DNA of 37,067 nt from a virus, in IMG/VR virus record IMGVR_UViG_3300029448_007991, positions 1-37,067 of that record; one strand, given 5' to 3'. Of the stretch, positions 808 through 27,342 are shown in pieces. The notes below the pieces were generated by a model, which was not told the origin of the DNA, made no database searches, and saw only the letters and a list, made by a program, of their open reading frames with translations. The position numbers and the translations under genes are program-made. Every line of letters starts with the position of its first letter. Within the stretch, counting starts at the first letter, position 1.

Positions 808-1164
808 ATGAGAGCATCACAATTCATTTCAGAGCAAATAGACTCAGACGCAGTCAACGAGCTGGATACGTATATCATGAACAATGAAGACCTGTATCGT
901 AGACGTTTCATGCCGATCATTTCAAACATCAAGAGAAAAGTAGCAAAGAACGTGTACGATCACGAGAAGGCACAGAAACTTTGGATGTACCTCGTGGATG
1001 ATGCCGCAAAGGAGTACGTCAAAGAGTTTGGATCAACACAAGACGATGTCAGCAACATGTTTCCAAAGGAAACAAGACAACAGGTTGCGAGAGTCATATC
1101 AGACAGAGAACTAGAAAACATAAAACAAGGCGAGTACGATGCACCTCAGGGAACTGTTTCTTAA
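808..1164 (+). CDS. Putative head-internal protein with capsid-targeting-like N-terminus, 118 aa
   Basis: The protein begins MRASQFISEQ. This matches the pattern of T4 internal-protein capsid-targeting peptides (basic residue, hydrophobic FI, then I-S-E at residues 7-9, which fits the gp21 protease rule [L/I]-x-E). The rest is helical and charged, with a region like YRRRFMPIISNIKRKVAKNVYD at residues 30-51. No enzymatic motif is visible. It lies directly under a late octamer and overlaps the next gene by 26 nt. The family is unknown to me; packaging in the head is inferred from the N-terminus and late expression. Confidence 0.7.
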   Translation: MRASQFISEQIDSDAVNELDTYIMNNEDLYRRRFMPIISNIKRKVAKNVYDHEKAQKLWMYLVDDAAKEYVKEFGSTQDDVSNMFPKETRQQVARVISDRELENIKQGEYDAPQGTVS

Positions 1165-2317
1165 GGAAGACGATCGTTCAACAGCAGTCTTTGCCTTTGG
1201 CCGATTTAATCCTCCCACAATAGGACACGAAAAATTAATTCAGAAGGTACAATCAACGGCCGCAAACGTGAACGGCAAGGGATATGTTTTCCTTTCACAG
1301 ACAGGTGGCACAGAAAAAGACCCATTAGATTTCACAACAAAATTATCATACCTAAGACAGCATTTCCAATCAGATCCTAAATTATCCTTTGGTGATATCA
1401 GGGCAAACACGATAATCAAAGTGATGAAACTGCTTGAGGCAGAAGGTAGAACAAAAGTTATAATGATAGCCGGTGACGACAGAGTCATGCAGTTCCAGAA
1501 ATTGCTTAACCAGTACAATGGCCAACCAACCAAGGCTGGTAATGTTGAATACACATTTGACAGCATACAAGTGATCAGTGCAGGACAGAGAGATCCAGAT
1601 GCAGATGACATCACCGGTGTGTCGGCATCAAAGGCCAGAGAGCTTGCCATGAAAGGTCAGGAACATGAATTCAGTAAAATTGTCATGGGTGGAGACAATG
1701 GTAAAGTTTTGTATGATAAGATTCAAGATCAATTTGGTAAGCAAGTTGACGAAAACAACAAAAAGTTGTATAATGAAGACATGGAAGACGCGAAGCCAAC
1801 TGTATATCTTGACATGGACGGAGTACTGGCAGACTTCTTTGGTGGCATTGAAAAGATGTACGGAGTAGAAAACTGGAAACAACTTACAAACGATAAAACA
1901 AAAGATCTCAAAAAAGAAGTTATTGACAGGATAACCGGCACAGACTTCTTTGCAACACTACCTAAATTCCAAACAGCAGATGCTTTGATAGATATGGTCA
2001 AGAAATTCACAGGCGGCACATTTAGTATTAACACATCACCTTTACGTGGTGATCACGAAAACTCAGGCAAATACAAGAAAGTATGGATTTCGAATAACAT
2101 CGAAAAGCCAGCAGAGATAATTGTTACTGGTAGGAAAGAAACATACGCCAAGGATAAAGGAACAGGAACACCTAACATCCTTATAGACGACAGGCCTGTA
2201 AACATACAAAAATGGCAATCGGCCGGGGGATACGGCATCCTATATCAAGCAAACAGGGATTCACTTAACAAAGTAAAACAAGCACTTGATCAATATGGAA
2301 AAGCCGATGAATCATAG
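1139..2317 (+). CDS. Bifunctional nucleotidyltransferase - HAD phosphatase fusion, 392 aa
   Basis: Residues 16-190 form a cytidylyltransferase-like (NMNAT/NadM-type) domain. The nucleotide-binding GRFNPPTIGH is at 21-30 (the T/HxGH motif), and GVSASKARE near 160-168 corresponds to the family ISxxxxR motif. Residues 220-385 form a HAD domain with DMDGVLADF at 225-233 (D225 nucleophile, D227 acid/base) and LIDDRP near the end, most like 5'(3')-deoxyribonucleotidases. The combination suggests NAD- or nucleotide-related metabolism; the substrate is not known. The N-terminus MHLRELFLKED looks like a capsid-targeting peptide with LKE at 8-10. The start overlaps the preceding gene by 26 nt. Confidence 0.85.
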   Translation: MHLRELFLKEDDRSTAVFAFGRFNPPTIGHEKLIQKVQSTAANVNGKGYVFLSQTGGTEKDPLDFTTKLSYLRQHFQSDPKLSFGDIRANTIIKVMKLLEAEGRTKVIMIAGDDRVMQFQKLLNQYNGQPTKAGNVEYTFDSIQVISAGQRDPDADDITGVSASKARELAMKGQEHEFSKIVMGGDNGKVLYDKIQDQFGKQVDENNKKLYNEDMEDAKPTVYLDMDGVLADFFGGIEKMYGVENWKQLTNDKTKDLKKEVIDRITGTDFFATLPKFQTADALIDMVKKFTGGTFSINTSPLRGDHENSGKYKKVWISNNIEKPAEIIVTGRKETYAKDKGTGTPNILIDDRPVNIQKWQSAGGYGILYQANRDSLNKVKQALDQYGKADES

Positions 2318-2981
2318 GTTCGTGCATTTTGGACCTGTACTTGCGGCAACTACTGTTGACTCAACATTACTGAAAGAACTGCTCGACAGGGGCAACAAGA
2401 CCACAGAATCACACGTCCAGCACCTTGCAGGACATTTAGAAACAGAAAACAAATTCACAGTCGACGACATGGTGTGGTTCGTTGATAACTTTGGAAAATA
2501 TTTTGTTCCATACTTTAAGAAATTACAAACCGAAGAAGACAATAGTTACTATTATGGCATGAAGCCTTTCAACAGGGTTCTACTGCAAAGTTTGTGGATC
2601 AATTTCATGCAAAAGAATGAATTCAACCCCCCACACAGACACGGCGGTGCGTTTTCATTTGTTGTTTATCTCGATGTGCCAAAAAATATACAACAGGAGA
2701 ATATAGATTTCAAAGGACAGGGAGTAGGACCCGGAGCAGTAAGTTTCTATTATGGCGAAGAACAAGTAGGTATAAAGACAGCCCATGCGATTGTGCCAGT
2801 CACAGGAGACCTTTGGATGTTTCCTGCTTCACTAAAACACATGGTACCACCTTTCAAATCTGACGTCACCAGAATTTCAGTATCTGGAAACTTTTTTATT
2901 ACAGATCAATTAAATAGAAAAGCACCTATACAAAAAGGAGAATTTTTAATCGACAACCAGAAGGAGACAATAAATGCCTAA
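2295..2981 (+). CDS. 2-oxoglutarate/Fe(II) oxygenase-like protein
   Basis: The core PPHRHGGAFSFVVYLDVP, the segment MFPASLKHMVPPF and the end motif VTRISVSGN match the double-stranded beta-helix of phage 2OG-Fe(II) dioxygenases. Candidate iron ligands are the His residues of PHRHGG and LKHMV, and the Arg of TRISV would bind 2-oxoglutarate. Such enzymes hydroxylate proteins or small molecules; the substrate here is unknown. The frame extends upstream to a TTG at 2286. ATG 2295 or ATG 2307 is more likely the start, and all of them overlap the previous gene slightly. It ends overlapping the next gene. Confidence 0.8.
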   Translation: MEKPMNHRFVHFGPVLAATTVDSTLLKELLDRGNKTTESHVQHLAGHLETENKFTVDDMVWFVDNFGKYFVPYFKKLQTEEDNSYYYGMKPFNRVLLQSLWINFMQKNEFNPPHRHGGAFSFVVYLDVPKNIQQENIDFKGQGVGPGAVSFYYGEEQVGIKTAHAIVPVTGDLWMFPASLKHMVPPFKSDVTRISVSGNFFITDQLNRKAPIQKGEFLIDNQKETINA

Positions 2982-3153
2982 ATTTAGCGGAATAAACAGA
3001 CCTTACGCTACAGGTGAAATACCCAAAACGCCACAAGAGCTACAAAGAGAATTAGACGAAAAAATGAAGAAGTTCCTGGCCAAGGGTGGCAAGGTGGAGA
3101 AAGTTAAAGCACACAAACCTACCAAGCAACAGTTGAAGGATTGGACTATCTAG
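2974..3153 (+). CDS. Small basic protein, 59 aa, unknown function
   Basis: ATG 2974 follows an AGGAG Shine-Dalgarno at about 2962 and overlaps the upstream stop by 8 nt. The 59-residue product starts MPKFSGINRPYATGEIPKTP, continues as a charged helix (QELQRELDEKMKKFLAKGGK) and ends at TAG 3153. It is lysine-rich like other proteins of this region, so a head-associated role is possible. No known family is recognised. Confidence 0.6.
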   Translation: MPKFSGINRPYATGEIPKTPQELQRELDEKMKKFLAKGGKVEKVKAHKPTKQQLKDWTI

Positions 3154-3359
3154 TGGACGAGTTAGAGAGGATAAAGCAATTGGCAGGTGTGGCTAACACA
3201 CAAGAGCCATCAATGGGAGAAAACCTCTCTTACACAGGCACAGAAAAAGCAAAATATCAGAGAAAGCACAACATAAGATCGGGTTCAGATGAGTGGTTTA
3301 AATTATGGTTCGCAAGACCGAAACTCACTGGCGAGAACCCAATGCCCAAAAACAAATAA
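3141..3359 (+). CDS. Small phage protein with TTG start, 72 aa
   Basis: The frame starts with TTG at 3141 inside the end of the previous gene and gives MDYLVDELERIKQLAG. The acidic amphipathic N-terminal helix is followed by a basic region (KAKYQRKHNIRSGSDEWFKLWFARPKLTGENPMPKNK). The overlap suggests translational coupling. The helix-plus-RSGSDEWFKLWFARP layout suggests a small virion or packaging-related protein, but no function can be assigned. A late octamer overlaps its last codons. Confidence 0.6.
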   Translation: MDYLVDELERIKQLAGVANTQEPSMGENLSYTGTEKAKYQRKHNIRSGSDEWFKLWFARPKLTGENPMPKNK

Positions 3360-3362
3360 ATA
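3355..3362 (+). promoter_or_regulatory. T4-type late promoter octamer AATAAATA
   Basis: The octamer overlaps the stop codon of the upstream gene and ends 8 nt before ATG 3371 of the superoxide dismutase gene. This places sodC and the following overlapping genes under late transcription. Confidence 0.6.
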
Positions 3363-3370
3363 CTCGCAAT

Positions 3371-4105
3371 ATGCGAGCCAAAGAATTCACAGAAACAAGT
3401 TGTCCTAGAACACGAGCCAAAGAATGCACGTGTGAGCAAATTAACACAATTACCGAAGCACAAGACACTGTGGTTGCACAGTGTATGTTGGAGCATTCTG
3501 ACACCGTTAAGGGGTCAATCCTGCTTATACAGGCACCAGGAACAGCAACACTGATAAAAGGCACCATCACAGGACTAACACCTGGAGAACACGGTTTCCA
3601 TATACACGAATTTGGCGACATGTCAGATGGTTGCAAGTCAATGGGTGGACATTACAATCCCGATGGCGTTGACCATGGAAGCATAGATGAAGGACATGTG
3701 GGAGATCTTGGTAACATAACAGCCGACAAATCAGGTATAGCAAAATTCACAATCCAAGCAAAAAGAGTTGACCTTATAGGCGAACGTTCTGTAATAGGAA
3801 GAGGATTTGTTGTCCACTCAGACAAAGATGATTTAGGCAAGGGTGGAGATGCAGAAAGTTTGAAAACGGGTAACGCAGGTGACAGGTTGGCCTGTGGAGT
3901 CATCGTTACAAGGTCCGAAGAAATGAAAGAAGCACATGGCGGAGAACACAGCTCAACAGGCAGGAGCATGACCAAAAGTGAAAAAGGTAAAAGAGAAAAA
4001 ATTGTTAAGGGCATGAAAAAAGACAAAGCAGGATTTAAAAAGAGATATGGCAAAGACGCAGAAGCAGTGATGTATGCCACAGCAACAAAACAAGCGATGA
4101 ACTAA
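3371..4105 (+). CDS. sodC: Cu/Zn superoxide dismutase with capsid-targeting-like N-terminus and basic tail, 244 aa
   Basis: Residues 31-180 are a full Cu/Zn SOD domain. Expected copper ligands are H77, H79, H94 and H149, zinc ligands H94, H102, H109 and D112, and C88/C175 can form the conserved disulfide, so it should convert superoxide to H2O2. The frame is open upstream to 3305, but ATG 3371 just after a late octamer is the likely start. The N-terminus MRAKEFTE is not a secretion signal. It resembles a capsid-targeting peptide, and I-T-E at 27-29 would allow gp21-type cleavage just before the SOD domain. Residues 200-244 are a lysine-rich tail (KKDKAGFKKRYGKDAEAVMY) of a kind seen on other marine phage proteins. 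Confidence 0.93.
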   Translation: MRAKEFTETSCPRTRAKECTCEQINTITEAQDTVVAQCMLEHSDTVKGSILLIQAPGTATLIKGTITGLTPGEHGFHIHEFGDMSDGCKSMGGHYNPDGVDHGSIDEGHVGDLGNITADKSGIAKFTIQAKRVDLIGERSVIGRGFVVHSDKDDLGKGGDAESLKTGNAGDRLACGVIVTRSEEMKEAHGGEHSSTGRSMTKSEKGKREKIVKGMKKDKAGFKKRYGKDAEAVMYATATKQAMN

Positions 4106-5040
4106 TGAAATTCATAATATTCAACGGCACACTAAAACCCGACGCAGAGTCAAACACTTCCGCAGTGTGTAAGATGTTGCAACTGGCATTTCAGAAAATA
4201 GGTGATGAGTGTGAAATCGTAACCCTAAGAGATCTTAAGTATGAAGCAGTTACAAAAGACGTGGATGACGAATTAAAACCTCACATCATGGACATATTCA
4301 AAAGTGATGGCATCGTATTCGCAACACCTATATGGTGGGGCGGACACAGTTCCCACATACAGTCAATGTTCCAGAGACTTGATCCAATATACAGTTGGGG
4401 GAAAGACAACAAGTATCAACCCTTCTACAACAAAGTTTTTGGCACACTGGTTTCAGGAGGAGGCGATGGATTCCAACACATACATGGAAACTGTTACAAC
4501 TTTGCAACAAACCTAGGTTTCACTGTGCCACCTAGTTGTAACATTGAATCTAAAGCACAAGGCATGGACGAAATCATAGATGACCAACAGACCCTGGACC
4601 AGGTGAAAAACTGTGCAGTGAATATGTCTACTTGGGCAAAAGTACTTAAAGAAGGCAATCCAACAATTAATGCAAGGCACGGTACAGTCGATGTAAGTTC
4701 AGTTGGTGGAGAAACAGATTATGCTTTCAGTGACAGTGTTAATGAAGGCAAAAGGATACCACGAAAAAAAGGACAAAAAGCAAAATCTAAAAAACACAGC
4801 GACTTGTACACAGACGAAGATCCAAAAGGCACAATACATGGACTAGGCTTCAAGGACGATGCAAGTGCAAAAGCAAGTGTCACAAAGATAAGAAAGTCCG
4901 GACGTTCACATGCACACAAGATACAGGCCGCAGTGGCAATGGAGCAAAGAGCGAAAGCGGCAGGAAAGTCAGGGCCGGCGGCCATTTACAGAAAATTCAT
5001 TAACTCAATGAAGAAAAAGACCAAAGCAAAAAACAAATGA
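4105..5040 (+). CDS. Flavodoxin-fold NAD(P)H/FMN reductase fused to basic phage module, 311 aa
   Basis: The first 185 residues have the flavodoxin-like fold of NADPH-dependent FMN reductases: beta strand MKFIIFNGTLKPDAESNTSA with the phosphate-binding loop, ATPIWWGGHSS near 73-83 and TLVSGGGDGFQ near 114-124. It should bind FMN and reduce quinones or flavin. From about residue 210 the protein becomes a lysine/histidine-rich module (HSDLYTDEDPKGTIHGLGF, then KSGRSHAHKIQAAVAMEQRA and KKKTKAKNK) that recurs in marine phage proteins and could bind DNA. It begins on the last base of the sodC stop codon, so the two genes are coupled and may act in the same redox task. Confidence 0.8.
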   Translation: MKFIIFNGTLKPDAESNTSAVCKMLQLAFQKIGDECEIVTLRDLKYEAVTKDVDDELKPHIMDIFKSDGIVFATPIWWGGHSSHIQSMFQRLDPIYSWGKDNKYQPFYNKVFGTLVSGGGDGFQHIHGNCYNFATNLGFTVPPSCNIESKAQGMDEIIDDQQTLDQVKNCAVNMSTWAKVLKEGNPTINARHGTVDVSSVGGETDYAFSDSVNEGKRIPRKKGQKAKSKKHSDLYTDEDPKGTIHGLGFKDDASAKASVTKIRKSGRSHAHKIQAAVAMEQRAKAAGKSGPAAIYRKFINSMKKKTKAKNK

Positions 5041-5264
5041 GAATTAAAGAGATACTAGCCACAAAATACGTGCATCCGGACGTAGACAAGATGCTTAACA
5101 AATACCAGAGACAGGCCAAGGGCAGGGCCACAATGGGCTATCATTCAAGCATGGCATACCCATACAGGGTTGAGGGTTGGAGTAAAAAATACAAAAAGTC
5201 GATCAACTGTAGCAATCCAAAAGGATTTAGCCAGAAGGCCCACTGTGCAGGTAAGAAAAAATGA
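5037..5264 (+). CDS. Small basic Cys-containing protein with capsid-targeting-like N-terminus, 75 aa
   Basis: It begins MRIKEILATKY, matching the N-terminal pattern of nearby genes, and ends with SINCSNPKGFSQKAHCAGKK, a two-cysteine lysine-rich motif that I recognise as recurrent in marine phage proteins. The overlap with its upstream neighbour is ATGA. The high charge and absence of catalytic motifs point to a nucleic-acid-binding structural or internal head protein. No clear [L/I]-x-E site follows the N-terminal motif. Confidence 0.7.
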   Translation: MRIKEILATKYVHPDVDKMLNKYQRQAKGRATMGYHSSMAYPYRVEGWSKKYKKSINCSNPKGFSQKAHCAGKKK

Positions 5265-6052
5265 AGATACGAGAATTCATAATAATGCCACACACGGCAG
5301 ACACAATGGGTCTCATACACAAACCCGGAACAGGCCCAAACAACAGATTTGGTTTTAAAAATCACAGCAACAACAGAGCAAACGAGATTGAAAAAGAAGA
5401 AGCCGCGGGTGTTGGCATAGTGACCAAACAGAACGCCACAAAGGATGTTCCTGTGGGTGGTGAGTACATGAATGTAAAGAAATTGGGATTGGGCAAGGGC
5501 AAGCCAAAAACAATGAAAGAAGAATTTGCTGAATTCCTAGAAAACATTGATCCAAAAGTGTGGACTGAACTACGGGCAAAAGGACTCGTGAGGCCAATGC
5601 ACTTTGATAGTCCCGAGGTCAGAGCGGCATACAAAGAAAAAGGACTACCTTACAAACCCGACATCAGTATTATCACCAAAGATAACTTGGATCAGTTTAG
5701 AACAAAAGAGCCGGAGAGATTAAAACAATTGAAACCAATCCAAGTAAGTGATCAGCAGTGGATTAATTACATGGATAAGTGGTGGAGGACTGAAAGGTTG
5801 AAACCTAAGGCAAAAGATAAAGTGCAACAGATAAAAAATGCCTATAAACTTTTATATAAAAAAGATATGGTGGAGAACTTCGCAGATGGTAAAAAGAAAG
5901 GCAAGAGCAGACCAGGACGTGTTAAACGTGCAGGTGCCAGTTGCAAAGGATCCGTAACAAGTTTGAGAAGCAAAGCGAAAAAAGCCAGCGGTGAACGAGC
6001 TAAGATGTACCACTGGTGTGCCAACATGAAGTCCGGCAGGAAAAAAAAATAA
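5261..6052 (+). CDS. Putative internal head protein with basic cysteine tail, 263 aa
   Basis: It begins MKIREFIIMPH, again the region's N-terminal pattern. Residues 80-95 contain a second similar segment, KTMKEEFAEFLENIDP. The middle is helical and charged. The last 55 residues are a strongly basic module with three cysteines (RVKRAGASCKGSVTSLRSK, then ASGERAKMYHWCANMKSGRK; the third Cys is absent in some copies of this module elsewhere, which I cannot check here). ATGA overlap with the gene before. Likely virion-associated and DNA-binding; function otherwise unknown. Confidence 0.7.
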   Translation: MKIREFIIMPHTADTMGLIHKPGTGPNNRFGFKNHSNNRANEIEKEEAAGVGIVTKQNATKDVPVGGEYMNVKKLGLGKGKPKTMKEEFAEFLENIDPKVWTELRAKGLVRPMHFDSPEVRAAYKEKGLPYKPDISIITKDNLDQFRTKEPERLKQLKPIQVSDQQWINYMDKWWRTERLKPKAKDKVQQIKNAYKLLYKKDMVENFADGKKKGKSRPGRVKRAGASCKGSVTSLRSKAKKASGERAKMYHWCANMKSGRKKK

Positions 6053-6080
6053 TCAAGTCATTTACCTGAATAACTAGTTT

Positions 6081-6782
6081 ATGCCTTATACCTTGGGTAT
6101 ATCCATTGAATACTACAAATACAAGCACGATGCTATCATGAGAATTTTTGCGGATAATCGCTTGATTGACGAAGTTTCTTTAGACAATCATGTAAAATTA
6201 AAATGTATTAATCTGCAAGGGGTGCCAGACTTTAAGCATGATTGCGGCCCCCTTAATCTTAGTCGCGTTATGTTCGTACCTGAAAAAATTTTTACCTATC
6301 GTATTGATGAACAATACCTAAAGAAAAAATTAAGAATCGAGATAAAAAACGATAACAACAATTACACAAATGGATTTATGACTGATTATTCATATATCAA
6401 TTTCCATCGAATATTTCTTATACCAGAATCTTTATTAGAGGAATCGGGTTGGTCTCGCCTGAACAAATTTGATAACCGATTTGTAAAGTGGCACGCTGAT
6501 ATACAATATTTTCCGCATGATTTTAACGAGCTCCTTTATGTTCCAAATCACAATAGTTCATATCCATATGAGAATTTGCCCGACAAAGGCAAGGTGATAA
6601 AAAACGATTCACAGCATAATTTGTATTACACAAAGAGAGGCGGTAGTTTTTCTGTACAAATAGAATTAAGTAAAAAGCACAACATCACCCATCTTGGAAA
6701 ACCACGGCCAGGAAAGATGTACCTTGCCCGTAAAGTAGAACGTTTGTTATGGGCTTACGGTCTGCTAAATATTACTAAATGA
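6081..6782 (+). CDS. Beta-rich protein of unknown function, 233 aa, possible acquired gene
   Basis: The protein alternates short hydrophobic strands (LGISIEYYKY, AIMRIFADNRLIDEVSL, LRIEIKND) in a way similar to the N-terminal domains of 312-794 and 14316-15386, and may be a carbohydrate-binding-like sandwich. The base composition looks more T-rich than the genes around it, with runs such as GCATGATTTTAACG, and it interrupts the series of proteins with capsid-targeting-like starts. It overlaps the next gene by ATGA. No family recognised. Confidence 0.6.
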   Translation: MPYTLGISIEYYKYKHDAIMRIFADNRLIDEVSLDNHVKLKCINLQGVPDFKHDCGPLNLSRVMFVPEKIFTYRIDEQYLKKKLRIEIKNDNNNYTNGFMTDYSYINFHRIFLIPESLLEESGWSRLNKFDNRFVKWHADIQYFPHDFNELLYVPNHNSSYPYENLPDKGKVIKNDSQHNLYYTKRGGSFSVQIELSKKHNITHLGKPRPGKMYLARKVERLLWAYGLLNITK

Positions 6783-7051
6783 AAATAAGCGAAGTAATCA
6801 TACGTAGAGTGCAGGAACAGGCAACTGCCGGCGCCACAAGTGCGGGTAACATAGCAACTGTAACTTCACCACACATTGCCATAGGCAAGGACAGGGGCAA
6901 CAAGGCCTACACAGGAACACCTGGCAGGTCAGGCACAAGAGCACCTAGATTACCAAAAATTGTACAACCAAAAAATCCAGACGGTACCGCCAAAGGTGCA
7001 CACAATTTACCTGGCGTTAACCTAATGGGTGGACCACTGGTAAAGAGATAA
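6779..7051 (+). CDS. Small Gly/Pro-rich protein with capsid-targeting-like N-terminus, 90 aa
   Basis: MKISEVIIRRVQEQ at the start fits the regional motif, with V-Q-E at 11-13 as a weak gp21-type site. The rest is low-complexity, Gly/Pro/Ala-rich and basic (AGATSAGNIATVTSPHIAIG, PGRSGTRAPRLPKIVQPKNP), suggesting an extended, unfolded internal head or DNA-associated protein. ATGA overlap upstream and TAATG overlap downstream show coupling. No enzymatic motif. Confidence 0.7.
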   Translation: MKISEVIIRRVQEQATAGATSAGNIATVTSPHIAIGKDRGNKAYTGTPGRSGTRAPRLPKIVQPKNPDGTAKGAHNLPGVNLMGGPLVKR

Positions 7052-7212
7052 TGCAAACTTTAATTTTGAAAAAAGATTGGATAGTCAAATGCCTAAACTG
7101 CGGACACGACGCACACGACAGGCCATTATACAGGACCGAGAAGGACTACGACGGCAGAGAGTACCAAATAGAGGTGTGTAGGCACTGCAGGTACGAAGAC
7201 GAAGCCGCCTAA
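7051..7212 (+). CDS. Small zinc-ribbon protein, 53 aa
   Basis: The ATG overlaps the previous stop (TAATG). The product has CLNCGH at residues 14-19 and CRHCRY at 43-48, a classic two-knuckle zinc ribbon, so it should bind zinc and perhaps nucleic acid. It starts MQTLILKKDW and ends EDEAA. The following gene begins right after its stop codon. The role is unknown; small zinc ribbons are common among phage transcription or recombination accessory proteins. Confidence 0.65.
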   Translation: MQTLILKKDWIVKCLNCGHDAHDRPLYRTEKDYDGREYQIEVCRHCRYEDEAA

Positions 7213-7782
7213 ATGATCTATGTATGCGGAGATAGTTTTGCGGCAGGTGATCCAGAGAGCAAAATAAAACCTTGGCATGAACAATTGACGTGTACTAATC
7301 TCGCACGGACAGGAGCAACAAACACCCAAATAAGTCAACAGGTAGACCATGCACTGGAAAATGCAAGTTTTATTGTTGTGCTTTTTACGACATGCACCCG
7401 TTTCGAATACGGCCCAAATGATTATTACACTTTACATAACGTGGCTAGAAGCAATCTTACTAAAATACAACAAGACATAGTTACAGAACATGCAAAACAT
7501 TTTTTTGATTTAGAATTGGAAATATACAAAAACAAGTGTATAATAGAAAGTGTATTACAACGATTAGTTGACAGTGAAATTCCATTTTTATTTGACCAAG
7601 GTGGATTCGAACATCCAAAATTTGGAGTTTCGGAAAAATATTTTGGAAAATACAATGCATATCGAAGTGGGTATAACTTATGGGACTGGGGAGATAGTAA
7701 AGTATATAGGCCTTATTTTCATATCACAGATCAAAATGTACACAACAAAATAGCAGATTATTACCGTAAACAAACACTATAA
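7213..7782 (+). CDS. SGNH/GDSL-type hydrolase, 189 aa
   Basis: The N-terminal strand runs into CGDSFAAGD, the block I motif with the nucleophile Ser at residue 8. ARTGATNTQISQQV near 34-47 fits the glycine-containing block II. Near the C-terminus DQNVH (D173, H177) supplies the usual DxxH pair. It is probably an esterase or acetyl-hydrolase acting on a sugar or lipid ester; substrate unknown. ATG 7213 follows the previous stop directly. Composition is T-rich compared with the surrounding genes. It is one of three SGNH-like proteins in this window. Confidence 0.75.
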   Translation: MIYVCGDSFAAGDPESKIKPWHEQLTCTNLARTGATNTQISQQVDHALENASFIVVLFTTCTRFEYGPNDYYTLHNVARSNLTKIQQDIVTEHAKHFFDLELEIYKNKCIIESVLQRLVDSEIPFLFDQGGFEHPKFGVSEKYFGKYNAYRSGYNLWDWGDSKVYRPYFHITDQNVHNKIADYYRKQTL

Positions 7783-7796
7783 GCCATCTGTGAGAA

Positions 7797-7804
7797 CATA
7801 AATA
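7797..7804 (+). promoter_or_regulatory. T4-type late promoter octamer CATAAATA
   Basis: Seven of eight positions fit TATAAATA. It is intergenic and ends 5 nt before ATG 7810, with no ribosome binding site in between. Confidence 0.6.
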
Positions 7805-7809
7805 TTGAT

Positions 7810-8160
7810 ATGAAAGTTAATGAAGTATTAAGAGAAGGCGCAGATTTTTACGGTTACTACAAAGATCCCAAAGATCCAGAAGGTAGAACAATGACATACC
7901 CAAAAGATATGGAATTTAAGACACCACACAGATCAAATGCAAACGCAAGAATGTTGCTATCAAGGATAGGATTAGATCCAGACTTTGAAAACACAGGTTC
8001 TACACCAATAGATAATTTCCTTGGCGCAACAGACAAATATCTAAGAATGAATGTTAGCGACAAAGACGATCCATTCTACGACGAAGTAGAAATGTACGAC
8101 ATGGAAGCAAAGAGATTCAAAAAAGAACATCCAGAAATTACACACGTGGGATTCAATTAA
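7810..8160 (+). CDS. Putative head-internal protein with capsid-targeting-like N-terminus, 116 aa
   Basis: It starts MKVNEVLREGADFYGYYKDP: the regional motif followed by L-R-E at residues 7-9, a good gp21-type cleavage site. The remainder is acidic and soluble (DKDDPFYDEVEMYDMEAKRF) with no enzymatic signature. It is the first gene behind a late octamer, and the next gene follows after one base. Family unknown; virion location inferred. Confidence 0.7.
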   Translation: MKVNEVLREGADFYGYYKDPKDPEGRTMTYPKDMEFKTPHRSNANARMLLSRIGLDPDFENTGSTPIDNFLGATDKYLRMNVSDKDDPFYDEVEMYDMEAKRFKKEHPEITHVGFN

Positions 8161-8161
8161 A

Positions 8162-9370
8162 ATGAAGTTCAACGAATTACAGCACATACAAAAACCTCAA
8201 CCAGAGCCAGACACATATGAGGCAGGCATGGCCCAAAACCAATTGCTCAAGATTGGATCACACGCAGTAAGATTGCATAACATGTTGGACGATGACCAGG
8301 AGATGGAATCATGGGTGGCCAAGAAGATCGACCTAGCATCAAACTACGTGAAGAGTGTACACGGTTACACAGCAGGACAGAAGGCAGGCACATACGACGA
8401 CGATGGCATGTCAGAAGAGAAAGAATGTCCCCCGGGACAGTACTACTGCAAGATGTCAGGCAAGTGTAAACCAATACAGGAAGACGCCTCTGGTTTCAAA
8501 TTGGTTTCACAAGCAAAAGACATAGCCAAAAAGATGGCGGGCAATTACACCGGTGCTGTGAGACAGATTGAGAAACTACAGAAAGATCTATCAAACAACA
8601 GTTCAGTGAAACAGGCACTACTACAATTCAACGAAGACGCAGGCGAGGGACACATGAGCAAGAGCCAGTTGTACCAGACTGCGAAAATGGCGATAGAATT
8701 ATTAGACATGATTAAAAAAGGTGATGACCTGGAGGGTTGGGTGCAGACCAAACTTAATCTAGCGGCGGACTACCTACAGGCAGTGTACCACTACGAGGAC
8801 TACCAGAAACTTAATCCATACAGGGAAGATCTTGACAGTGCATTGATGCAAAGACACGCAGGTGTGATACAGAAGCATCTAGATGAGATATTGGCTAAAG
8901 AAACAAAGACAGCGGACGTTGACACCAAACCTGGCATGATGCGAATACTGAAAAAGAGAGTGAACGAAGTTGAAAAAGAAATAGCCAAAGAGAACAGGAA
9001 AGAATCAGAACAGACATCTGAAGCAATAGATCTAGAAGAAGGCATAAAAGAATGGGGCAAAAGATTAGCAATGGCAGGAGTCATTGTGGCAGGATTGGCC
9101 GGAGTCAACTCGATCAACAACGCAATAGACAATTCTGTACCGGCAATCAGTGCAATGAACACTGCATTAGAGATGGCACAGGACTCTGGCAACACAGAAT
9201 TGGCAAAAATGATTGAAAAAGACCTATCAGATGCCAAAGTTAGACTGAGTTCTGGCAAAGATCTCGGTGCTGTGGCAGACATGCAGGACAAGTACGCAAA
9301 ATTCATGAAGACAGAAGGCTTGGCCTATGAGTCAAGACTGTTAGTAAGCCTAAAACAACAACTTAAATAA
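8162..9370 (+). CDS. Large helical protein with internal repeat, likely virion-associated, 402 aa
   Basis: The start MKFNELQHIQ fits the regional N-terminal pattern. Two copies of a helical repeat are visible, around residues 28-70 (LLKIGSHAVRLHNML, then ESWVAKKIDLASNYVKSVHGY) and 169-216 (LYQTAKMAIELLDMI, then EGWVQTKLNLAADYLQAVYHY). A cysteine-rich insert CPPGQYYCKMSGKCKP lies near 90-105. A hydrophobic Gly/Ala stretch near residues 300-320 may insert in a membrane or form a buried helix. I know similar repeats from marine T4-like phages, where function is not established. Confidence 0.7.
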   Translation: MKFNELQHIQKPQPEPDTYEAGMAQNQLLKIGSHAVRLHNMLDDDQEMESWVAKKIDLASNYVKSVHGYTAGQKAGTYDDDGMSEEKECPPGQYYCKMSGKCKPIQEDASGFKLVSQAKDIAKKMAGNYTGAVRQIEKLQKDLSNNSSVKQALLQFNEDAGEGHMSKSQLYQTAKMAIELLDMIKKGDDLEGWVQTKLNLAADYLQAVYHYEDYQKLNPYREDLDSALMQRHAGVIQKHLDEILAKETKTADVDTKPGMMRILKKRVNEVEKEIAKENRKESEQTSEAIDLEEGIKEWGKRLAMAGVIVAGLAGVNSINNAIDNSVPAISAMNTALEMAQDSGNTELAKMIEKDLSDAKVRLSSGKDLGAVADMQDKYAKFMKTEGLAYESRLLVSLKQQLK

Positions 9371-9382
9371 AACTGTAACAAT

Positions 9383-9390
9383 TATAAATA
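9383..9390 (+). promoter_or_regulatory. T4-type late promoter, perfect TATAAATA
   Basis: An exact match to the T4 late consensus in the short gap between genes. It ends 6 nt before ATG 9397, where the expected start site of transcription would be. Confidence 0.75.
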
Positions 9391-9396
9391 CTTCAT

Positions 9397-10227
9397 ATGA
9401 GCACATCAGACAACAGTTTCGCAGACCTAGTAAAGAGATTAAACGCAATGAGTAACCTTACTCCGGAAGAAGAACGTGCATCTTTGATGGAATCTGTTGG
9501 AAAAGCACCTAAAGTGCTAGATGACAAAGAAGTAACACTTTCAGATATTGCCAAATTAGCAGGTATCAAGGAATATGTAGAACCTGTAAAGCATTCAAAA
9601 AAAGCAGAAGCACTAGTTGAGTCAATCACTGCACCACAGAGTTCAATATCAAAAGCGATAGCGGAATCAGACGCTGATGATTCTATTGCCACTTCAATCA
9701 AGAAAGAAGTGAATGAAGAAGTAAACAGACTAGACAAGATAGCAGAACTAGAGGCACAGTTGGCAGAACTGAAGACGGAACAAAAAGAAGAACAGACATA
9801 TGACTCAAAATCATTCAGAGAAGTTATCACAAAGGATATCGCGGAGTACATCAAAGGCGCGGAAGACACTGCTCTCGTGGAACTTTACAACACAATCTCA
9901 GACAATGAAGCAGTTTACAATGAAGAATCATCAAACATTCTCATCAAGACTCCAGAGACTACTGAGATCATAGCAGACGCTGAACAGGCCGAAGCACCAG
10001 CAGAAGAAGTTCTTGCAGATGCAGAAGCAGACAAAAGAAATATGCAAGAGCCACACTCACCAGAGAAAGACGGTGAAGAGGACGCAGAAGACAAATCCGA
10101 CGAAAAAGACACAGACGGCGAAGTGGACATATTAGACCCAGAGTTTGACGAAGGTGAAGAAGTAGAAATAGAGGCACCTGCAGAAGACAAGTTCACAAAC
10201 GACCTAGATCCAGCAGACAAAAAATAA
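9397..10227 (+). CDS. Very acidic, partly coiled-coil protein, 276 aa
   Basis: The N-terminal half is helical, with a likely coiled coil around residues 105-130 (NEEVNRLDKIAELEAQLAEL). From about residue 185 it is dominated by Glu, Asp and Ala (PAEEVLADAEADKR, EDAEDKSDEKD, DEGEEVEIEAPAED). It has no cysteine or catalytic motif. It sits alone under a perfect late promoter. The acidic, low-complexity nature recalls scaffold or prohead core proteins, but there is no direct evidence for that. Confidence 0.65.
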   Translation: MSTSDNSFADLVKRLNAMSNLTPEEERASLMESVGKAPKVLDDKEVTLSDIAKLAGIKEYVEPVKHSKKAEALVESITAPQSSISKAIAESDADDSIATSIKKEVNEEVNRLDKIAELEAQLAELKTEQKEEQTYDSKSFREVITKDIAEYIKGAEDTALVELYNTISDNEAVYNEESSNILIKTPETTEIIADAEQAEAPAEEVLADAEADKRNMQEPHSPEKDGEEDAEDKSDEKDTDGEVDILDPEFDEGEEVEIEAPAEDKFTNDLDPADKK

Positions 10228-10235
10228 TCTAAAAA

Positions 10236-10243
10236 ATTAAATA
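10236..10243 (+). promoter_or_regulatory. T4-type late promoter octamer ATTAAATA
   Basis: Six of eight positions fit TATAAATA, including the conserved TAAATA core. It lies 5 nt before ATG 10249, in the 21-nt gap after the preceding gene. Confidence 0.5.
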
Positions 10244-10248
10244 AGTGT

Positions 10249-10890
10249 ATGCAACTACACTTGACCGACAACAAGTTCAATACGGATCCGTATTGGAAAG
10301 AGCGTATCACAAACGTGTTCGCATGTCCGCCAAAAGAGGTGGTGGCAATGTTCGACCAAAACGGGTATGATCTCACAAGACTAGAACAGATGTATGCGGT
10401 GGCCAACGGAGCGGAGACCACCAAACACAGGAACAGTGAACACATCACATTGAGAAAAAATTGGTTCACATCAGATGACACCGAGCAAGGTCCACACATC
10501 AACCATGCGTACATGTTTGAGCGTAAGGGCTATTCAGGTGATGCCTTAGAGCAACTTACAGCATGGGCCGAATACAGACCACACTTCCATAAACTTATAG
10601 CCATGAGACCCAAGTGGGGACTTGATTTCAGCATAGACTACTGTGACAGGCAGGGCAACGTGTTGGAACTGCTTCACTGGGAGTACGACGGGTTCGACTA
10701 CAACGAAGTGGCCACAAAGAAAGAGATCATGGACGAGTTCCTTTTAAACCAAGACTGGGACGAACGGGCACAGACCATGCTGGAACGCAAGGATGAATGG
10801 CATAAACTGGGCTTTTTTGAACAGAGCGAGTGGAAAACTAAATTCTTTGGCATTGACAAAGAACGTTTCAAGATGGTGCTGTGGAAATAA
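10249..10890 (+). CDS. Conserved-type phage protein of unknown function, 213 aa
   Basis: A globular protein rich in Trp, His and aromatic residues (HKLIAMRPKWGLDFSIDYCD, LELLHWEYDGFDYNEV). It has no signal peptide or membrane segment and no catalytic motif that I recognise. The region RKNWFTSDDTEQGPHINHAYMF is notable for its density of aromatic and polar residues. It has its own late octamer upstream and another overlapping its stop codon, so it is probably transcribed as a single late unit. Confidence 0.65.
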   Translation: MQLHLTDNKFNTDPYWKERITNVFACPPKEVVAMFDQNGYDLTRLEQMYAVANGAETTKHRNSEHITLRKNWFTSDDTEQGPHINHAYMFERKGYSGDALEQLTAWAEYRPHFHKLIAMRPKWGLDFSIDYCDRQGNVLELLHWEYDGFDYNEVATKKEIMDEFLLNQDWDERAQTMLERKDEWHKLGFFEQSEWKTKFFGIDKERFKMVLWK

Positions 10891-10893
10891 ATA
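10886..10893 (+). promoter_or_regulatory. T4-type late promoter octamer AATAAATA
   Basis: It overlaps the stop codon of the upstream gene and ends 6 nt before ATG 10900. Seven of eight positions match the T4 consensus. Confidence 0.6.
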
Positions 10894-10899
10894 CTGCAT

Positions 10900-11820
10900 A
10901 TGAGCTCAATACCTTACAACTACAAGCCATACATAGATGCTAAAGTGTCAATGACTGACAACGGAACTGTGGATGCAGGCCGACAGATGCAGTCCCCAGC
11001 AAGTGCAGGTAGCAGAGGGATGGCAAAAACAATGCAATTCTCAAAGAATAAAACACAGATGCAGTTGGGACAAGAAACCATAGCAGAATCAATGGTTGAG
11101 ATCAGAAGTATACTAAACAGGATCGACGGTGTGAACGCACCGGTGCAGGAAGACGCAGGCGAGAAGATTGCCAACATGGCACAGAACATGACCAAAGACC
11201 AGTTCATGAGTCATGCTGATGAATTAGGTTTAACTCCAGAAGAGGCCGCGGAACACTATGAAAAAATGCAGGGCGGTGCACACGTACAGGAAGCACCAAA
11301 ACAAAGCGATATAGATTACACAAAATTAATGTTAGATATTTCGGCTATGAAAGACAGGATAGCAGAACTGCCTATAGACGATGACGCAAAAACATCGGCT
11401 CTCACAGCATTGGGACAGGTTGAAGACGACCTATCAATGGATGAACACGAGTATACACCATTCCCAGAAGGTGATGAGTTTGACATTGAAGAGGACGAGG
11501 ACTTCGAAGAAGTGTTAGGTCCATTAGGTTTTCCAGAAGACGAGACGGAATTATTTGACGCAGAGTACCAAGGAAGAAAAGTTCCACTTAACAAACCAAT
11601 GAGAGGTGATGTTAAAAAATTTAAAGTTTACGTTAAAGATCCAAAAACCGGCAACGTTAAAAAAGTTAACTTCGGACATGGTGGTACAAGTGCAAAAAGA
11701 CCAACTATGAGAATAAGGAAGTCAAACCCGAAAGCAAGGAAAAGTTTCAGGGCAAGACACAACTGTGCAAACCCAGGTCCAAAAACAAAAGCAAGATATT
11801 GGTCTTGCAGGAAGTGGTAA
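10900..11820 (+). CDS. Acidic protein with basic DNA-binding-like C-terminal module, 306 aa
   Basis: Residues 1-215 are acidic and helical with a strongly acidic stretch near 185-215 (EGDEFDIEEDEDFEEVLG). From residue 225 the character flips to a basic module: YQGRKVPLNKPMRGDVKKFK, then VKKVNFGHGG, RKSFRARHNCANPGPKTKAR and the end YWSCRKW. I recognise this module as recurrent in marine phage and some large-virus proteins; two cysteines could bind metal. It does not carry the capsid-targeting-like start. It heads a late unit with the next three overlapping genes. Function unknown; likely virion or packaged-DNA associated. Confidence 0.7.
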   Translation: MSSIPYNYKPYIDAKVSMTDNGTVDAGRQMQSPASAGSRGMAKTMQFSKNKTQMQLGQETIAESMVEIRSILNRIDGVNAPVQEDAGEKIANMAQNMTKDQFMSHADELGLTPEEAAEHYEKMQGGAHVQEAPKQSDIDYTKLMLDISAMKDRIAELPIDDDAKTSALTALGQVEDDLSMDEHEYTPFPEGDEFDIEEDEDFEEVLGPLGFPEDETELFDAEYQGRKVPLNKPMRGDVKKFKVYVKDPKTGNVKKVNFGHGGTSAKRPTMRIRKSNPKARKSFRARHNCANPGPKTKARYWSCRKW

Positions 11821-11821
11821 C

Positions 11822-12022
11822 ATGTTTGGCTGGTTAAAGAAAGTTTTTAGTGCTGGCGGAGACTCAGTAGCAGAACCAAAGAGAGCTAGGGACAAAGGCA
11901 GATACAAAGCAGACGACAAGTCCACTCCAGATGTAAATGAAGCATGGGAAGGTGGCAAGGCGCCCATGACTGCAAAACAAAAAAGGATAGCGGCAAAAAA
12001 AGCACTTCTAGGAAGAAAATGA
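11822..12022 (+). CDS. Small basic protein, 66 aa
   Basis: The frame is open upstream to 11765, but ATG 11822, just after the previous stop codon, is the natural start: MFGWLKKVFSAGGDSVAEPK. The C-terminus is lysine-rich (MTAKQKRIAAKKALLGRK). The N-terminal amphipathic segment FGWLKKVF could associate with a membrane or another protein. It ends overlapping the next gene by 4 nt (ATGA). Function unknown. Confidence 0.6.
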   Translation: MFGWLKKVFSAGGDSVAEPKRARDKGRYKADDKSTPDVNEAWEGGKAPMTAKQKRIAAKKALLGRK

Positions 12023-12204
12023 AAGTAAACGAAGTTTCAGGAATCACAGAAGAACAATTTGATGTATTGGCGGAAAAGAAAGATGCCTGCTATCACAAAG
12101 TCAAAGCAAGATACAAAGTATGGCCTTCGGCCTATGCCTCTGGTGCTCTAGTACAGTGTCGTAAAAAGGGTGCGGCCAACTGGGGTAACAAGAGCAAAAA
12201 ATGA
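12019..12204 (+). CDS. Small Cys/Lys-rich protein with capsid-targeting-like N-terminus, 61 aa
   Basis: ATG 12019 (not the further-upstream in-frame ATG at 11944) gives MKVNEVSGITEEQFDVL, the regional motif with I-T-E at residues 9-11 as a candidate gp21 site. The remainder is a compact module CYHKVKARYKVWPSAYASGA followed by LVQCRKKGAANWGNKSKK, which resembles a basic, two-cysteine module common in marine phage proteins. ATGA-type overlaps on both sides. Likely packaged DNA-binding protein; inference only. Confidence 0.7.
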   Translation: MKVNEVSGITEEQFDVLAEKKDACYHKVKARYKVWPSAYASGALVQCRKKGAANWGNKSKK

Positions 12205-12953
12205 AGATAAACGAAATACAAGAAGGATCTGACAGAGAATATCTCAATCTTCCAAAGGAAGACATCGAGAGATTACGGGCAAAGTTCCTTCCAGATTGGG
12301 AGTACAAGGATAACAGCCTGCAGAAAAGATACAAGTTTGAAGATTACTTCGAAGTGATCAGATTCCTGATCAACACAATAAAGCCTCAAGAAAAACTAGA
12401 TCACCATGCGGACCTTGGTGTGTTCTATGATGAGGTCCTAGTGAAAATTTACACGCACAGGACAAATGACGTTTCCGATTACGATTTCATGGTAGCCATG
12501 CAAATGGACGCGATAGCGAAAATGAAACATGGTGCAATAAATCCCAACTACGATCTAAACGCATTGGTCGACGAGGGCACTAGATGTTGGAAGGGCTACA
12601 CCAAGAAGGGCATGAAGACCATGTTCGGTAAGAGAGTGCCCAACTGTGTCAAAAAAGAACACGTTGACTTTTGTGTAAACTGCGGAGACATAGTGTTAGA
12701 TGAGTCGCTGAATGAGAATCTCAAAAAATGGTTCAAAGACAAATGGGTAAGAGTTGGACCAAAAGGAAAAATTAGAGGTGCATGCGGTGGCAAGAGCAAA
12801 GGCGAAGGTAAACCCAAATGCTTACCAGCCAAGAAAGCATATGCACTAGGTAAAAAGGGTAGGGCAAGTGCGGCCAAAAGGAAGAGAAGAAAAGATCCTA
12901 ATCCCAACAGACGTGGTAAAGCAATAAACGTCAAAACTAAAAAGAAAAAATAG
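12201..12953 (+). CDS. Multi-module basic protein with capsid-targeting-like N-terminus, 250 aa
   Basis: It starts MKINEIQEGSDREY, with I-Q-E at residues 6-8 fitting a gp21 site. Residues 15-125 are a folded acidic domain without recognised motif. Then come basic modules: CWKGYTKKGMKTMFGKRVPN near 133-152, a cysteine pair CVNCGD near 161-166, and the final RGACGGKSKGEGKPKCLPAK, then KRKRRKDPNPNRRGK and a poly-Lys end. This tail pattern recurs in marine phage proteins and suggests nucleic-acid binding. Last gene of a coupled four-gene late unit. Confidence 0.72.
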   Translation: MKINEIQEGSDREYLNLPKEDIERLRAKFLPDWEYKDNSLQKRYKFEDYFEVIRFLINTIKPQEKLDHHADLGVFYDEVLVKIYTHRTNDVSDYDFMVAMQMDAIAKMKHGAINPNYDLNALVDEGTRCWKGYTKKGMKTMFGKRVPNCVKKEHVDFCVNCGDIVLDESLNENLKKWFKDKWVRVGPKGKIRGACGGKSKGEGKPKCLPAKKAYALGKKGRASAAKRKRRKDPNPNRRGKAINVKTKKKK

Positions 12954-25635: not shown

Positions 25636-26629
25636 GGGCCTAAGCAAAGCAGTATTAGTCACGGGCGGAGCAGGATATGTGGGTTCACATACTTGCAAGT
25701 TCCTAGCCAAGAATGGCTTTACACCAATAACCATAGACCGAGACCTTAAGACCAAGTTTAAACCAGTGAACTTTGGGCCTAGTTTTGACATAAACCTACC
25801 GCAGGAGATAGAACGACTTGAAGAGATAATAAAACGTTTCAACATTACAAGTTGTATACATTTTGCCGGCAGTGCCTCTGTTGCTGAGTCTGTGAAGAAC
25901 CCATCGGAATACTACAGGAATAATGTGATAACCACAGTAGTACTATTAGACAAGTTGATTGAATGTGGCGTTAAGACATTCGTGTACAGTTCTAGTGCGG
26001 CCACGTACGGTGATCCAGGATTTAGGAAGTGCAGAGAATCAGACGTTCCTAATCCTATCAGTGCATATGGTGGAAGCAAACTGATGATGGAGATGATCTG
26101 CAAAGATTATCTGAGAGCATACGGACTTTCTAGTGTTGGTCTGAGATATTTCAATGCCGCTGGCGCAGATCCAGAAGCAGAAGTAGGGGAATTGAGAGAA
26201 AACGAAACACACATAGTACCTTTGGCCATTGATGCCGCGAGACAGGGAAGAACATTCAAGATGTTTGGTGACAAATACGACACACCAGATGGATCTTGTG
26301 TCAGAGATTACGTCCACGTTATGGACCTAGCAGATGCACACGTCAAAGCATTGAATTATGCATCAGCAAATCCTGTATCTGAAGTATTCAACCTGGGATC
26401 AGGTGCACCAGCATCTAACAAAGAACTTCTAAATGCAGTGCAAAAACATGTAGGCGAAATGAAAATTGAGATACACGACAACAGACCAGGTGATCCTGCA
26501 TACTTGGTGGCAGACATAGACAAGGTAAAGAAAGAGTTAGGTTGGGATCCAGCACAGAGTTCAATTGACAACGTGGTGGCGACTGCTGTACAATGGTATA
26601 ATAAGACACACAAGAAGGAAATACAATAA
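25592..26629 (+). CDS. galE: UDP-glucose 4-epimerase (GalE-like), 345 aa
   Basis: A complete short-chain-dehydrogenase-type epimerase: NAD-binding TGGAGYVGSH at 24-33, catalytic Ser in YSSSAATYG at 132-140 and the YxxxK pair Y159/K163. LRYFNAAGADP and VRDYVHVMDLADAH follow, both typical of GalE. It interconverts UDP-glucose and UDP-galactose. The first 19 residues before the fold overlap the preceding glycosyltransferase gene by 44 nt; no closer start is available except non-standard ATT. Ends coupled to folE. Confidence 0.93.
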   Translation: MEDTTGHQFQKPSIEGLSKAVLVTGGAGYVGSHTCKFLAKNGFTPITIDRDLKTKFKPVNFGPSFDINLPQEIERLEEIIKRFNITSCIHFAGSASVAESVKNPSEYYRNNVITTVVLLDKLIECGVKTFVYSSSAATYGDPGFRKCRESDVPNPISAYGGSKLMMEMICKDYLRAYGLSSVGLRYFNAAGADPEAEVGELRENETHIVPLAIDAARQGRTFKMFGDKYDTPDGSCVRDYVHVMDLADAHVKALNYASANPVSEVFNLGSGAPASNKELLNAVQKHVGEMKIEIHDNRPGDPAYLVADIDKVKKELGWDPAQSSIDNVVATAVQWYNKTHKKEIQ

Positions 26630-27342
26630 TGAGCGAAGATATTTTAAAAGATAGTTGGGTACCCGAAGGGCCAATCAGTAAAACTATAAAAGACAGGCTA
26701 AAGAAAGCAGGCAAGAGATTCCATTCCAATGACAACATCTCAGAATACATAGAAGATGGTGAGATGGATCAGTTGCAGGCAGAGGTGCAGGAAAAACTGC
26801 AAGGTGTATTAGACAGCCTAGTAATTGACACAGAAAACGATCACAACACACAGGAGACCGCGAAACGTGTGGCAAAAATGTACATCAGAGAAACATTTGG
26901 GGGCAGATTCAAACCAGCACCTAGGGTTACAAGTTTCCCTAACATGGGGTACAAGAGCATGTACACTAGTGGTCCAATATCAATTAGATCAACGTGTGCC
27001 CATCACTTCCAGAACATTGTGGGCAAGGCATGGGTTGGCATCATCCCCAACGGAGAAGTAATTGGATTGAGTAAATTCAATAGGATCGTACATCACATCG
27101 TGGAACGACCACAAATACAAGAGGAGATGACAACTCAGATTGCAGATGAATTGAAAAAATATGCCAAGACTGAGAATCTTGCAGTAGTTGTAAAAGCAGA
27201 ACATCACTGTATGACGCATAGGGGCGTCAGAGAACACGAATCTGACATGACTACGGCAATTATGCTAGGTGCATTCAAAGATGATCCTGCCACAAGAGAT
27301 GAATTTTACAAAATCTGTATGAGTATGAAGGGTCATGGCTAA
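26629..27342 (+). CDS. folE: GTP cyclohydrolase I (FolE), 237 aa
   Basis: Zinc ligands C123 and H126 in STCAHH and C194 in HHCMTHRGV are all present, as is the core VGIIPNGEVIGLSKFNRIVH. It converts GTP to dihydroneopterin triphosphate, the first step of folate and of 7-deazaguanine (queuosine/archaeosine-type) synthesis. In this window, with dpdA, queE and a yhhQ-type gene, the second role is likely. An AAGGA ribosome binding site precedes ATG 26629. The N-terminal 45 residues are an extension absent from the catalytic core. Confidence 0.95.
   Translation: MSEDILKDSWVPEGPISKTIKDRLKKAGKRFHSNDNISEYIEDGEMDQLQAEVQEKLQGVLDSLVIDTENDHNTQETAKRVAKMYIRETFGGRFKPAPRVTSFPNMGYKSMYTSGPISIRSTCAHHFQNIVGKAWVGIIPNGEVIGLSKFNRIVHHIVERPQIQEEMTTQIADELKKYAKTENLAVVVKAEHHCMTHRGVREHESDMTTAIMLGAFKDDPATRDEFYKICMSMKGHG

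Follow-up and report, generated by a model that had tools for sequence, protein, structure and literature searches.

Between positions 808 and 12953, the virus record IMGVR_UViG_3300029448_007991 of IMG/VR (37,067 bases, analysed over its full length and referred to here as the window, with 60 genes called, all on the + strand) carries a gene cluster that very probably encodes precursors of internal (cargo) head proteins, furnished with a targeting peptide of the T4 kind and destined to be cleaved, packaged and ejected. The nearest named relatives of the window's DNA polymerase are those of the jumbo phages Sinorhizobium phage Phosso (50%) and Agrobacterium phage Atu_ph07 (47%), and the sequences depict a marine giant phage whose heads probably carry, besides the DNA, a set of proteins to be released with it into the bacterium, the cluster proteins most likely working like the internal proteins (IPs) of T4. 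This reading, put forward in an original prediction made from the same DNA, is borne out by the confinement of a shared N-terminal motif, by constant P3 and P1 residues around a variable P2 at the predicted cut, by a match in register to the capsid protein, by an S77 protease and head module in the same genus and by the published presence of cyanophage homologues in virions.

Ten open reading frames, named here by their start positions (Table 1), had been said to begin alike, and all ten are present with those starts. We scored N-termini with the pattern M[KRH][IVLFAYTM]x[EQ][FLIVM], hereafter the tag, which occurs in 10 of the 20 genes within 808-12953 and in 0 of the 40 other window genes (Fisher p=2.5e-6), in agreement with the claim that no gene right of 13 kb starts in this way; 20,000 shuffles of residues inside each N-terminal column gave a mean of 1.0 matches and a maximum of 6, against the 10 observed. 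For the Cu/Zn superoxide dismutase (SodC, 3371) and for 12019 the longest reading frame starts upstream (3305 and 11944, respectively), and the inner ATGs are preferred because the aligned orthologue starts agree. The hydrophobic-x-Glu motifs lie where they had been placed, with ISE at residues 7-9 (808), LKE at 8-10 (1139), LRE at 7-9 (7810), ITE at 9-11 (12019), IQE at 6-8 (12201) and ITE at 27-29 (SodC), and the 6779 product has a further candidate cut, VQE at 11-13, which had been overlooked. Membership of these putative precursors among T4-type internal proteins is supported by tag and candidate cut for seven of the ten (808, 1139, 3371, 6779, 7810, 12019 and 12201) and by the tag only for 5037, 5261 and 8162.

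Since the pattern was set after the window had been read, contigs of relatives, unused in the original prediction, serve as its test. In eight related contigs pooled, the tag is found in 57 of 182 genes of the cluster or head module versus 3 of 886 elsewhere, a comparison whose significance is overstated by the non-independence of orthologues, although the tagged families number about 15. Contigs G001, G005, G009, G026 and G029 hold 6-11 matches apiece, all within the syntenic cluster or the head module; the three outside matches fall in G014 (two) and G015 (one), and two of them are mutually homologous proteins of another kind (MRIVEFDIIFLSY, MKTIEFDVIFLSY) that probably resemble the tag by chance.

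The strongest case for a cleavage signature, as far as sequence can indicate one, is the 6779 family, in which all 20 distinct N-termini, 8-13 residues long, end in [IVLM]-x-E, with Glu at P1 and a hydrophobic residue at P3 in 20/20, a variable P2, and xA[TS]AGATS directly after the predicted cut. The major capsid protein carries the same xA[TS]AGATS in the same register behind a hydrophobic-x-Glu of its own (LSE/QATAGATSAGN, where a slash here and below marks a predicted or candidate cut), and the QATAGATSAGNIAT of the 6779 product equals the capsid protein's predicted post-cleavage sequence. The capsid-protein cuts, which are predictions by analogy with T4 gp23, fall at KKYLSE/QATAGATSAGNVAT (G026), RYLAE/QSTAGATSAGNVAT (G029) and PLME/TATAGATSAGNVAT (Phosso); in T4 gp23, gp21 removes a 65-residue propeptide (PMC9026906), the end of which maps to FGSFLTE/AEIGG. 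In the 808 family the motif is I-x-E, with x being S, K, L, T or N among seven distinct N-termini. The cluster is flanked by ClpA and DNA polymerase and stands apart from the head genes, which could be taken to mean that the N-terminus is a docking signal for another destination, for instance the tail, the baseplate or a replication compartment. Such a destination is made very improbable by the resemblance to the predicted cut of the capsid protein and to the T4 IP and gp24 propeptides, and by the lack of the motif among tail genes of the same contigs.

The protease and head genes are found in close relatives. Contig G029 carries the same cluster with a DNA polymerase 92% identical to that of the window, placing both in the same genus, and encodes portal, S77 protease (PF03420, 7.8e-26), gp22-like and capsid genes at 103-110 kb; G026 likewise combines the cluster with a similar T4-type head module, and Phosso and Atu_ph07 too encode an S77 prohead protease with T4-type head proteins. 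Searches for S77 and gp23 in the contigs of the first relatives found neither, and longer contigs with the head module supplied both; the Phosso/Atu_ph07 capsid protein as query returned mostly their close relatives, and a marine-type capsid protein worked. An 80-amino-acid (aa) protein starting MKLMEFFTY adjoins the portal gene, in the place of gene 67 in T4. In the sister group formed by G014 and G015 (DNA polymerase 65-67%), the cluster includes a tagged cytidylyltransferase, a tagged GH19/LysM endolysin (MRASEFITE/N) and the 6779 propeptide in an 8-residue form (MKISELLE/TATAGATSAGN), with one more tagged gene near the head module; a search of G014 and G015 did not turn up the 12019 module, so that across the wider group the modules are not a constant feature. 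Other relatives encode a tagged zeta-like P-loop kinase (MKIKDITE/G; PF06414 4.6e-14). Just downstream of the capsid gene lies a 147-aa acidic protein starting MRYKEIDINIKAI (G029:112764-113207 and G026:55439-55885), which has no relative within the sets compared and is a candidate tagged core protein.

Virion data come from cyanophages. In the Synechococcus phage S-CREM2, Table 3 of the published mass spectrometry lists the cytidylyltransferase ORF154 and ORF160 among virion proteins (PMC10665884); the 1139 product is 30% identical to ORF154 over 172 aa, and ORF160 matches 12019 (75% over 53 aa) and 12201 (56% over 34 aa). NMNAT or cytidylyltransferase has also been reported in S-SCSM1, S-CBWM1 and S-SM1 virions (PMC9602691, PMC3037559). 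We examined the N-termini of all S-CREM2 proteins and found virion proteins starting MKDFDSFLEE (SAM hydrolase), MKRFDAFLTE (APH-like kinase) and MKNFSSFLTE (cytidylyltransferase), of the form MKxFxxFLxE, alongside MKDLHSFLTE (ORF13) and MQTFSMFFSE (ORF136). The Cas9-like ORF12 (OR473000: 7704-10313), reported in virions (PMC10665884), has a T4-like site at residues 18-25 (RFASFMAE/AAV), which suggests a head-delivered nuclease. A pattern based on the T4 tag, settled after the N-termini had been seen, matches six S-CREM2 proteins, five of them from the virion (p=0.003); a strict pattern fitted to T4 and the window matches four, all from the virion (p=0.003); and a looser one matches nine, five virion and four non-virion (p=0.037). 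The available portions of the S-CREM2 paper make no mention of targeting sequences (PMC10665884), and in the open literature, subscription papers being outside our scope, "capsid targeting" and "cyanophage" occurred together only in a T4 review.

It is also important to consider whether most of the tagged proteins could dock on the prohead core to serve in assembly or as scaffold, being broken down or leaving the particle afterwards rather than being delivered as cargo. The T4 core proteins gp22, gp67 and gp68 are substrates of the same protease and for the most part do not stay in the head, and small tagged proteins also adjoin the portal and capsid genes (G029 104948, 112764); SodC, the dehydratase and the NMNAT-nucleotidase have no evident scaffold role, however, and homologues of three proteins remain in finished S-CREM2 virions, so that we consider a scaffold role for most of them unlikely.

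The cyanophage comparison extends to the basic modules of the cluster. Modules of T4-GC119 (KDACYxKV, CWxGY, basic) are common to 12019, 12201, the C-terminus of 4105 and part of 8162. S-SM2 encodes them as a single long protein (SSM2_109, T4-GC119), and S-RIM8 gp114 unites several of them, both proteins lying between gp16 and gp17 in the structural gene region. The 12019 product is matched by 365 cyanophage and related records, and 8162 gives weak tblastn matches to proteins of the cyanophage structural region. Junctions resembling an internal tag occur as FQQFQE/KCWKGY (S-RIM8, S-RIM2), as LTEEQFDEAAGEKDACY and as KTFEEFRE/SWSNKYKKS (S-SM2 SSM2_108); the S-SM2 CWPGY and S-SCSM2R junctions have no internal-tag motif, so we make no general polyprotein claim.

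The tag is conserved in orthologues although the protein bodies diverge: in the 7810 family it is retained in 12 of 14 homologues with body identity of 27-60% (starts MKVNEVIREG, MRAQEFIREG, MKANEFISEG and MRSEEFIREG). Tags and domains are, on sequence comparison, swapped between proteins. In L022, residues 1-42 of the 5261 family are joined to SodC; in G009 an 8162 relative is fused with the 12019 module; and in 12201 the dehydratase lies between the tag and the CWKGY module, orthologues lacking the enzyme reading MRASEIITE/KCWKGY directly. The constant tag residues are encoded by two to four different codons, so the constraint acts on the protein, and a DNA-level feature as the source of the shared starts is ruled out. 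These features bear on the possibility that the cluster encodes ordinary cytoplasmic auxiliary proteins whose starts are alike by chance, duplication or translation-start constraints. SodC, FMN reductase and NMNAT could well be auxiliary metabolic enzymes, many cluster starts overlap the preceding stop codon, and the S-CREM2 authors allow for co-purification of virion enzymes (PMC10665884), but the distribution p-values and column shuffles, the varied codons, the constant P3 and P1 beside a free P2, and the enzyme domain placed precisely behind the tag in 12201 leave little room for such an origin.

Several points weigh against assigning the cluster to head cargo, co-purification being one of them. 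The S-CREM2 homologues ORF160 and ORF137 have no tag at their start; the 5037, 5261 and 8162 products have no clear [LIV]xE cut near the N-terminus; and the head module, S77 protease and capsid genes included, does not lie within the window itself. Nor were canonical late promoters found: the genes had been described as lying under late promoters, a statement that found no support, as TATAAATA occurs once in the window (9383) against 1.6 expected by chance.

Among known systems, T4 IPI-IPIII and Alt, which are cut by gp21, are the closest, sharing a short propeptide with hydrophobic targeting and processing positions (with a candidate hydrophobic-x-Glu end in the sequence of seven of the ten), unrelated mature parts with the leader alone in common, several basic mature parts, and a protease of the peptidase S77 family, to which gp21 belongs and which is found in the genus of the window phage. 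Targeting propeptides of the T4 type are about 10-20 aa long, and in that of IPIII residues 4 and 7 matter most for targeting, residues 8 and 10 for processing. T4 MKTYQEFIAE aligns with the 808 tag when shifted by one, gp24 MAKINELLRE resembles the 7810 tag, and IPI MKTFKEFTSTTTPVSTITE, in which the IPI cut falls, resembles the SodC start through TITE/A. The leader differs from that of T4 in often being a residue shorter and having Glu or Gln at position 5, and about ten such genes stand in one cluster, metabolic enzymes among them, with C-terminal modules exchanged. T4 itself has three IPs and Alt, and at least ten IPs have been reported in its relatives (PMC12373910). The inner-body proteins of phiKZ, 201phi2-1 and SPN3US offer another parallel, with many head proteins, gp21-related processing and ejection with DNA in those phages, but phiKZ-type propeptides are mostly far longer, several exceeding 100 residues, with A-x-E or S-x-E motifs (PMC5694885, PMC7411985), and this assignment is ruled out by the 6779 and 808 families, whose propeptides have 8-13 residues and an [LIVM]-x-E motif. 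The class is that of T4 internal proteins in a large, modular, enzyme-bearing version that is new; the earlier statement that no set so large and enzyme-rich was known leaves out of account, as regards size, the larger phiKZ/SPN3US-type ejection sets on record (PMC5694885). The S-CREM2 virion enzymes and T4-GC119 share with the cluster the cytidylyltransferase family, the KDACYxKV and CWxGY modules and, on the enzymes, T4-like starts, whereas cyanophages hold several modules in one long protein and here they are separate tagged genes. In T4 (NC_000866: 18966-19130), gene 61.1 encodes a 54-aa hypothetical protein starting MKTFKEFIKED, very near the IP tag, and is possibly a further internal protein.

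By analogy with T4, we propose that an exchangeable N-terminal peptide (Met-basic, with a pair of hydrophobic positions spaced by three residues and, as a rule, an [L/I/V/M]-x-E end) would dock each protein on the prohead core during assembly, that the phage's S77 (gp21-type) prohead protease would then cut it off, and that the mature part would stay in the DNA-filled head and leave with the DNA at ejection. The cargo would comprise the NMNAT/cytidylyltransferase-nucleotidase, SodC, pterin carbinolamine dehydratase and a group of small, very basic proteins and modules; FMN reductase may be loaded as well, by way of its C-terminal module. As to the role of the cargo in the host, the three enzymes point to redox and cofactor control as infection begins, and the basic modules to an association with DNA. 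We give an even chance to the broader proposal that marine T4-like phages, from cyanophages to giants, share one modular cargo-loading code of swappable tag and basic head modules, with which nearly any enzyme could be loaded (SodC, dehydratase, NMNAT/nucleotidase, zeta-like kinase and endolysin, and in S-CREM2 the SAM hydrolase, kinase and Cas9), part of which in cyanophages would be one long protein, maybe cut into pieces by the prohead protease. If such a code exists, head cargo could be read from genome sequence alone, and the rule would predict which uncharacterised proteins of abundant marine phages travel in the particle and are delivered at infection onset; it could also explain why enzymes such as Cas9, SAM hydrolase, kinases and NMNAT are found in cyanophage virion proteomes, a finding for which co-purification had been left as a possibility.

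Table 1. Genes of the candidate head-cargo cluster in the window (slashes, predicted or candidate cuts; pI, isoelectric point).
Position	Strand	Product and tag	Further evidence
808..1164	+	118-aa protein, unknown fold, tag MRASQFISE/Q	orthologues keep I-x-E
1139..2317	+	NMNAT/cytidylyltransferase-like domain fused to 5'-nucleotidase-like (NT5C) domain, tag MHLRELFLKE/D	
3371..4105	+	Cu/Zn superoxide dismutase (SodC), tag MRAKEFTET..., basic C-terminal module	PF00080 2.9e-44
4105..5040	+	FMN reductase, no N-terminal tag	PF03358 2.1e-13
5037..5264	+	75-aa basic protein (pI 10.1), tag MRIKEI, KGFSQKAHCAGKKK module	
5261..6052	+	263-aa basic protein (pI 10.1), tag MKIREF	
6779..7051	+	90-aa very basic protein (pI 11.4), propeptide MKISEVIIRRVQE, then QATAGATSAGNIAT	
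7810..8160	+	116-aa protein, tag MKVNEVLRE/G	
8162..9370	+	402-aa protein, tag MKFNEL, GC119-type module and hydrophobic stretch	
10900..11820	+	untagged protein, C-terminal module RARHNCANPGPKTKARYWSCRKW	phrog_7595 7e-14
12019..12204	+	61-aa basic module protein, tag MKVNEVSGITE/E	
12201..12953	+	tag MKINEIQE/G, pterin-4a-carbinolamine dehydratase domain, then CWKGY and basic modules	

The 1139 product matches the PHROG families cytidyltransferase (2.9e-48) and 5'-3' deoxyribonucleotidase (2.7e-24), and the dehydratase domain of 12201 spans residues 17-105 (PF01329 7.2e-16). In SodC the candidate cut TITE/A falls at residue 29, with TITE/A or LTE/S conserved in the orthologues read. Relatives in G009 include a short version of 5037 (MRYYEFISE/KWSGKYKRSINC) and a 5261 homologue starting MKIREIVHRE/DAAGVGI, to which NEIEKE/EAAGVGI corresponds in the 5261 product, and the RARHNCANPGPKTKARYWSCRKW module of 10900 has its own tag in G026 (163975; MKINEIVNKI...). 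The FMN reductase is possible head cargo through its C-terminal module, which is common to cyanophage T4-GC119, is seen in S-SM2 SSM2_109 and is missing from the G001 and G005 orthologues. Tagged proteins with Gly/Ala-rich hydrophobic stretches occur at 8162-9370 in the window, at G014:82279 and at G015:114226 (KRLAMAGVIVAGLAGVNSI; AIGRGLAKGIGGVAKGVGMIGG), and such stretches could serve membrane passage during ejection; a tagged 94-aa protein of L022 (5842-6126, MKISEIISELNRRDFLKKVGKGAAATAAFGAGALVPSTAWP) has a twin-arginine-like motif and a hydrophobic stretch directly after the tag.

Elsewhere in the window, the genes at 26629-27342, 29523-30131 and 31083-31988 read by eye as FolE-, YhhQ/QueT- and QueE-like and suggest 7-deazaguanine (preQ0/queuosine) chemistry; folE-like and queE-like genes stand at similar positions in Phosso. 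An 85-aa protein at 13781-14038 matches T4 DsbA weakly (PF11126, 7.6e-4, below cut-off); its place immediately upstream of DNA polymerase is conserved, Phosso and Atu_ph07 included.

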